From the NCBI GenBank assembly GCA_026416125.1, contig JAOAFT010000002.1, positions 150,773-214,772 on the forward strand: DNA of 64,000 nucleotides. Direction: 5' to 3'. This document shows positions 50,348-51,918 of this stretch, one piece after another. The position numbers and the translations under genes were made by a program. The notes under the pieces are model-generated. The model was not told the origin of the DNA. It made no database searches and was given only the letters and a program-made list of their open reading frames with translations. The DNA is from Bacteroidota bacterium. GTDB lineage: Bacteria > Bacteroidota > Ignavibacteria > UBA10030. How positions within the stretch are numbered: position 1 is the stretch's first letter; each line of letters starts with the position of its first letter.

Positions 50348-51148
50348 GTGGCTCGATTTAAATTGTACATAGAGTACGAAGGAACGCGGTATAGTGGCTG
50401 GCAAGTACAGAAAAATGCTCGTACAATCCAGGGAGAACTGATTGGAGCTGCAAAGTCAGTTTTCCAAACATCTTCCTTTGAACTATACGGCGCAGGACGG
50501 ACTGATGCAGGTGTTCACGCACTCTGTCAGGTTGCTCATCTCGATGTCGAAACATCTCATACCCCTGATACTATTCGTGTACGAATGAATGATAACCTTC
50601 CGGCTGATATTGCCCTCATCGGTGTTGAACGAGTGCCCTCTACATTTCACGCTCGGCATAACGCTGTTGCACGAAGTTATGTTTACCAAATATCTCGCCG
50701 TCGTACTGCACTTGGAAAACGCTTCGTGTGGTGGGTAAAAGATGAACTCAATGTCCCTACTATGGAACATGCTGCACAACTATTCCTTGGATTGAAAAAT
50801 TTCGAATCTTTCACAGCAGACGATCCAAGTGATAGATCAACGAAAGTACACATTGAATCCATCGAACTTCGTGAAGTTGGATCACTCATCCTTTTCCGAA
50901 TTATCGGCTCCCACTTCCTGTGGAAAATGGTTCGCCAAATGGTTGGAGTTCTCGTAGAAGTAGGGCGAGGTACATTGAGCATTAATCAAGTAAAAGAACT
51001 ACTCCACATATCGTCGGACCTACCAGCAACGCTCACGGCACCACCATCAGGGCTATTTCTCGAACGAGTGTACTACTCACACGCTAAGCAAGTACCTCCA
51101 TTGAGACCAATTTTAGAAATCCCATCCTTTATGCACTATCGGGGGTAA
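50348..51148 (+). CDS. truA: tRNA pseudouridine(38-40) synthase
   Basis: 266 residues from GTG 50348, with GGGAG seven bases upstream. It makes pseudouridine at positions 38-40 of the tRNA anticodon arm. Motifs are YEGTRYSGWQVQ, YGAGRTDAGVHALCQVAH with catalytic D53, FHARHNAVARSYVYQI and FLWKMVRQMVGVLVEVGRG. The cysteine-rich small ORF begins three bases after the stop. Confidence 0.95.
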   Translation: MARFKLYIEYEGTRYSGWQVQKNARTIQGELIGAAKSVFQTSSFELYGAGRTDAGVHALCQVAHLDVETSHTPDTIRVRMNDNLPADIALIGVERVPSTFHARHNAVARSYVYQISRRRTALGKRFVWWVKDELNVPTMEHAAQLFLGLKNFESFTADDPSDRSTKVHIESIELREVGSLILFRIIGSHFLWKMVRQMVGVLVEVGRGTLSINQVKELLHISSDLPATLTAPPSGLFLERVYYSHAKQVPPLRPILEIPSFMHYRG

Positions 51149-51151
51149 ACA

Positions 51152-51337
51152 ATGAGAAAAAAACAACAAGCTCAAAAAAGACGAGATCTTCCTGAATTCT
51201 GTGACTTTCATTGTACACATGCATCATTTACAGAACCAGAAACATCAGGTGCTTGCAGGCGCGAAGTACCTGTATACTGCTCATTGTTCAAAAAACTTAA
51301 TACGAAACACTCGCCATGCTTAGAAAAAAAACGATGA
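51152..51337 (+). CDS. Cysteine-rich small protein, truA-linked
   Basis: 61 residues; not recognised. It starts three bases after truA, with GGGGG seven bases before its ATG, and its TGA overlaps the next gene's ATG as ATGA, so translation coupling supports it being real. Five cysteines (C17, C21, C35, C43, C56) and H20 lie in CDFHC, GACRR, VYCSL and SPCLEK. Such spacing suggests zinc or Fe-S binding but matches no named motif I know. The N-terminus is basic with no signal peptide. It could act on RNA like its neighbour, but this is conjecture. Confidence 0.6.
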   Translation: MRKKQQAQKRRDLPEFCDFHCTHASFTEPETSGACRREVPVYCSLFKKLNTKHSPCLEKKR

Positions 51338-51918
51338 ACCTTGCAATGTTCGCACTTATCATAGGATTCTCTGCACCCCTGTACGCTCAAACTATCCGAC
51401 AACCCATTCAAGAAGAGGTACAACGATACCCAAAACTCGAAATTCAAGACCTTTACAAATTTGCCTACCAAGCTGCAATGGGCAATGCTCACTTTGTGCG
51501 CGATTCAGGAACCATCGCAGACGACGTCCTCCATCAACTTTCTCGCATCAACGCATCACCCCATGAACCACTATTCATTGCTCTCACCACTGACAAGCGT
51601 ATTGTTCGTCTTTCACTCCGCACAGCGAAATACTATGGTATACCACCAACAGCTATTATAAATGCAATTCTCCACACTGCTCGGAATGTGAAACCATCAA
51701 AAACACTCCTCGAAACATTCCTTATGGATATAGAAAAGCTTGCTGATGATTCCCTTCTTCCTTTCTCCCATACTGCAGTCCGGACATATTTTCAACGTAT
51801 GAAAGAACAACAGTATCCACCAGTCCACCATTCTAAAACATTCATTGAAACATACGATCCTGTATACTACATCATCGATGGAACACTATGTGAAACACTC
51901 CTGAAGAGTATACGATGA
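51334..51918 (+). CDS. Secreted protein of unknown function
   Basis: 194 residues from ATG 51334, where ATGA overlaps the small ORF stop. A signal peptide (MNLAMFALIIGFSAPLYAQ) ends at AQ. The mature part has LEIQDLYKFAYQAAMGNAHF, a segment I recall only from unnamed conserved proteins, and otherwise alpha-helical sequence. No catalytic motif or repeats are evident. Coupling to the cysteine-rich ORF is notable because that one is predicted cytosolic and this one exported. Confidence 0.7.
   Translation: MNLAMFALIIGFSAPLYAQTIRQPIQEEVQRYPKLEIQDLYKFAYQAAMGNAHFVRDSGTIADDVLHQLSRINASPHEPLFIALTTDKRIVRLSLRTAKYYGIPPTAIINAILHTARNVKPSKTLLETFLMDIEKLADDSLLPFSHTAVRTYFQRMKEQQYPPVHHSKTFIETYDPVYYIIDGTLCETLLKSIR

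Follow-up and report, generated by a model that had tools for sequence, protein, structure and literature searches.

The window (the whole stretch of 64,000 nucleotides that was analysed) contains, between positions 50348 and 51918, three consecutive genes on the forward strand, namely a truA gene here termed truA-B and two genes, CYS and SEC, whose products belong to undescribed families. The features of this locus are as follows.

50348..51148, + strand: TruA-B, TruA-family tRNA pseudouridine synthase (second paralogue), 266 aa, GTG start
51152..51337, + strand (stop included): CYS, 61 aa, undescribed family with five conserved Cys residues
51334..51337, + strand: ATGA junction, CYS stop over SEC start, read from the sequence
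51334..51918, + strand: SEC, 194 aa, exported, undescribed family, mainly helical
51334..51390, + strand: signal peptide of SEC, MNLAMFALIIGFSAPLYAQ, read from the sequence

The truA-B gene ends at position 51148 and is followed, after a three-base spacer (ACA), by the CYS start codon at 51152, and the CYS stop codon TGA (ending at 51337) forms an ATGA overlap with the SEC start codon at 51334, thereby confirming the close spacing behind truA that the first-pass annotation had described. The longest open reading frame of SEC opens at an upstream ATG (51316); the start was placed at 51334 since this choice yields a better signal peptide and retains the conserved overlap.

The order truA-B, CYS, SEC is observed in five genomes, these being the window's own (G000), G020, G026 (genus g8), and G012 and G022 (g13). 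The overlap between CYS and SEC in these loci, which represent three genera, is −4 in three cases and −1 in two, and CYS begins either inside truA-B or at most three bases past its end, the exact CYS start being uncertain in G020. Since the overlap is retained in all five loci, coupling of CYS and SEC is well supported in the three genera; a lack of coupling in related genomes, which had been named beforehand as a ground for abandoning the proposal, was thus not encountered. The geometry of the junctions implies a single transcript and coupled translation, as had been suggested. Counts of promoters and terminators were no higher than in shuffled sequences.

The CYS and SEC protein families

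Searches with CYS and SEC against Pfam, NCBIfam, PHROGs and PADLOC produced no match above cut-off and neither protein matched a solved structure in the PDB by sequence, in agreement with the earlier view that both are unrecognised. The sole listed Pfam match of CYS, Cys_rich_FGFR (PF00839; 13.5 bits, E = 0.081), lies below the cut-off of 22 bits and was rejected as a chance-level match. An assignment of CYS or SEC to a known family, a defence gene or a phage gene was likewise rejected, all results in the four libraries being below cut-off; no PADLOC model match indicated membership of an anti-phage defence system, no relatives of either protein were found in viral contigs and plasmids, and a literature search returned nothing on the CYS family, the SEC family or a truA operon of this kind. 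The AlphaFold2 model of CYS is of moderate quality (pLDDT 73.6, pTM 0.54) and contains three short strands, and its comparison with PDB folds gave nothing better than E 2.7.

Strong matches to CYS were detected in 29 of 61 genomes (the window's own and 60 relatives) at E ≤ 5.4e-10; the same-frame homologues in the other 28 (E from 2e-19 to 5e-10) dispose of the concern, raised in the first-pass annotation, that the 61-residue ORF might have no homologues. Across 396 genomes of the phylum there were 24 strong matches, all of them within the window's class, and one borderline match. The five cysteines of CYS that the first-pass annotation had described are located at residues 17, 21, 35, 43 and 56 (C-x3-C-x13-C-x7-C-x12-C), and all five are invariant, together with P14, D18, F26 and G33, in a 28-row alignment (A1) that was built without selecting rows by their cysteines and therefore provides an unbiased count. 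In a wider set the cysteine count is 44 of 44, a result that is partly built in because these rows were chosen by the pattern C[DN]xxC. Two deviating homologues were also observed: that of L108 (G418) is a true exception in which Ser replaces C21, leaving four cysteines, and the row of L062 is without C56. Members of the family are leaderless, the N-terminal stretch of CYS is rich in Lys and Arg, and the predicted pI is 8.4–9.8 for nearly all intact bacterial members.

SEC has a narrower distribution, with matches in 14 of the 61 genomes (13 besides its own) and in 14 of the 396 genomes of the phylum, some of which lie outside the window's class. The claim that the second protein is exported was upheld, as SEC opens with a predicted signal peptide and its relatives have a signal peptide or a lipoprotein-like box at the N-terminus. 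Residues D39, Y41, K42, G50, R92, H166, P176 and Y178 are present in every row of an alignment of 34 rows, some of which are duplicate loci (about 22 distinct sequences). The AlphaFold2 model of SEC (pLDDT 87.7, pTM 0.82), derived from four sequences only, is nearly all helical, residues 1–17 having a pLDDT below 50, and comparison with the PDB gave no fold match better than E 1.9. In L134 (G231), a single ORF of 473 aa joins a SEC-type domain to an alpha/beta hydrolase domain at the C-terminus.

TruA-B and the genomic settings of CYS and SEC

The window TruA scores 199.7 bits against TIGR00071 (cut-off 142.85) and retains the sequence GAGRTDAGVHA, read in its translation, with the catalytic Asp motif GRTD. 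It is not the only TruA of its genome; a second copy, TruA-A (G000:C11:98402-99133), is 37% identical to it, and most relatives also carry two copies. TruA-B shares 60–67% identity with the corresponding copies from other genera of the family and only 33–41% with the other copy, and a 29-row TruA tree resolves two clades with 100/100 support, the window copy falling in clade B, which is the better-conserved clade and is present in about 43 of the 61 relatives. This status as second paralogue had been missed in the first-pass annotation.

Within the window's family, the gene that occurs most regularly near truA-B is c4, which encodes a protein of approximately 413 aa without a Pfam family (e.g. 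L079:7785-9026) and is found downstream of SEC or CYS at most truA-B loci bearing these genes and upstream of truA-B in genera g2, g9 and g11. Since c4 accompanies truA-B in this way across genera, these two genes look like the older pair. A search of the window's own genome for c4, made without a positive control in that genome, gave no match.

The first-pass annotation had regarded CYS and SEC as the best candidate for an undescribed unit in the window, and this part of the proposal fails. Across the 61 genomes, eight carry both genes, 21 carry CYS only, six SEC only and 26 neither, a co-occurrence that does not exceed chance (Fisher p = 0.54), and CYS elsewhere stands alone in unrelated contexts. 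Where both are present they are adjacent in five of the eight genomes and unlinked in the remaining three (G014, G041 and G046). SEC occurs without CYS in G003, G017, G023 and others, and in G003 it directly follows truA-B. CYS follows truA-B in G007 and G028, SEC being absent there, and is separated from truA-B by a further gene in G024 and G030 (a polysaccharide deacetylase gene in G024). This distribution shows that neither CYS nor SEC is an obligate partner of the other. The copy in G028 (L101 / L065) has a frameshifted CYS and seems to be a degenerating version of the operon, if not an artefact of the assembly.

For CYS and TruA-B, 25 genomes carry both, four (G014, G032, G042 and G045) CYS only, 18 TruA-B only and 14 neither. 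This co-occurrence is above expectation when genomes are counted (p = 0.013, a value that is too small since the genomes are related) and gives p = 0.30 when genera are counted; on these figures CYS and TruA-B may be functionally linked. CYS adjoins truA in a minority of genomes only. In genus g9 it stands by itself, flanked by a GH38 gene and a second hydrolase gene; PcrB and a SIS-domain gene are its divergent neighbours in f7, Ada and MGMT those in f3, and an RsmE-like gene is close by in f2. A neighbourhood common to the CYS lineages was looked for and none was found.

A further CYS homologue (L064:4001-4210) is located on a contig titled Candidatus Lokiarchaeota, together with genes that we take, from reading their translations, to encode an archaeal SecY and Vps4-like, Cbf5-like and Taw1-like proteins. 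A second genome of that archaeal phylum (L184) also carries CYS, making two of 196, and in both the gene is flanked by secY and a gene for a Taw1-like radical SAM protein. Since the second genome has the same Taw1-like and SecY neighbours, the archaeal CYS does not represent a stray contig.

Interpretation and comparison with known systems

The explanation that we favour, with moderate confidence, is that CYS and SEC are two genuine, undescribed genes of a lineage-specific operon, CYS being a metal-binding protein and SEC an exported one, and that the two are co-regulated rather than complexed. Tight joining is confined to a few related genera, which argues for an ordinary operon of one lineage and not a fixed new system. 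The operon would be headed by TruA-B, CYS and SEC having joined the operon of this TruA paralogue in one family. CYS would be a small, basic, cytosolic protein whose cysteines hold one metal site, as suggested by invariant cysteines in a leaderless protein, and its Lys/Arg-rich tail probably binds a nucleic acid or a protein partner. The site of action of SEC would be extracytoplasmic, and the protein may be an enzyme that employs the conserved residues His, Arg, Asp, Tyr and Lys. The ATGA junction may set the dose of SEC through re-initiation after CYS, the shared transcript thus providing co-regulation and not a physical complex of the two proteins.

The metal bound by CYS could be zinc or an iron-sulphur cluster. 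A cluster, which would make CYS a HiPIP- or ferredoxin-like redox or structural protein, is possible but on the whole rather unlikely: four to five invariant cysteines over 40 residues of a leaderless protein are consistent with it, as is the origin of many CYS carriers, to judge by their record titles, as metagenome-assembled genomes from sediments and groundwater, but neither sequence nor fold comparison matched CYS to an Fe-S protein of Pfam or the PDB. We rank zinc higher because no redox-gene neighbourhood recurs among the CYS lineages, admittedly a weak ground, and the five cysteines, one more than the usual Zn(Cys)4 site requires, count against the favoured explanation.

It is improbable that CYS and SEC, either by themselves or together with TruA-B, constitute a dedicated unit, in which a cytosolic protein might, for instance, donate metal to an exported partner or regulate it. 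The ATGA or one-base overlap in every adjacent pair and the adjacency of the genes in most genomes holding both would fit such a unit, but CYS occurs without SEC in 21 genomes and SEC without CYS in six, the two are unlinked in three genomes, SEC follows truA-B directly in G003, where CYS is missing, and the proteins act in different compartments. We consider it very improbable that CYS serves the pseudouridine synthase TruA-B as an RNA-binding accessory subunit. In favour of this, CYS abuts or overlaps truA-B in g1, g8 and g13, 25 of the 29 CYS genomes possess TruA-B, the CYS tail is basic and the gene adjoins one reading as Taw1, a tRNA-modification enzyme, in the two archaeal genomes; against this, four genomes have CYS without TruA-B, the genes are unlinked in most TruA-B genomes, the association by genus is not significant, and truA-B is accompanied most regularly by c4, not by CYS. 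A bolder version, in which CYS would be a metal-binding accessory subunit of the second TruA, forming a two-component synthase with its own targets, and the same protein would have been recruited to an archaeal tRNA-modification locus, is fainter still. The short length of CYS and its lack of a named family might suggest a spurious ORF open behind truA, an idea that is effectively ruled out by more than 40 homologues sharing the cysteine pattern in other contexts.

On present evidence, CYS and SEC are real, undescribed genes that are tightly coupled in a few genera and do not form a dedicated new system; the functions proposed for them above are putative. The finding, at present mostly at the level of annotation, adds two protein families without a name in current libraries, one of which (60 residues, five cysteines) extends across one bacterial class and into two archaeal genomes, and reveals in many of these bacteria a second, better-conserved TruA paralogue, set in a gene neighbourhood of its own. 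To our knowledge TruA acts alone, and if CYS does assist TruA-B it would be an unusual partner for this enzyme.

With regard to known systems, CYS resembles the small zinc-ribbon and zinc-knuckle proteins in being short, basic and leaderless with conserved cysteines, and differs in that it has five cysteines, matches no family or fold and lacks the paired CxxC/CxxH knuckles of the classical zinc ribbon (C-x3-C is followed by three single cysteines). Small HiPIP-like or [4Fe-4S] subunits, such as BssB and BssC of glycyl-radical enzymes, share with CYS at least four cysteines across a short leaderless chain, but the spacing in CYS is different and no PDB sequence or fold corresponds; no glycyl-radical enzyme was seen near CYS. 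The first gene of the locus is a TruA (TIGR00071 / PF01416), a tRNA pseudouridine(38-40) synthase above the family cut-off with GRTDAGVHA retained, and it differs from the other TruA copy, beside which it occurs in most relatives, in belonging to the second and more conserved clade.
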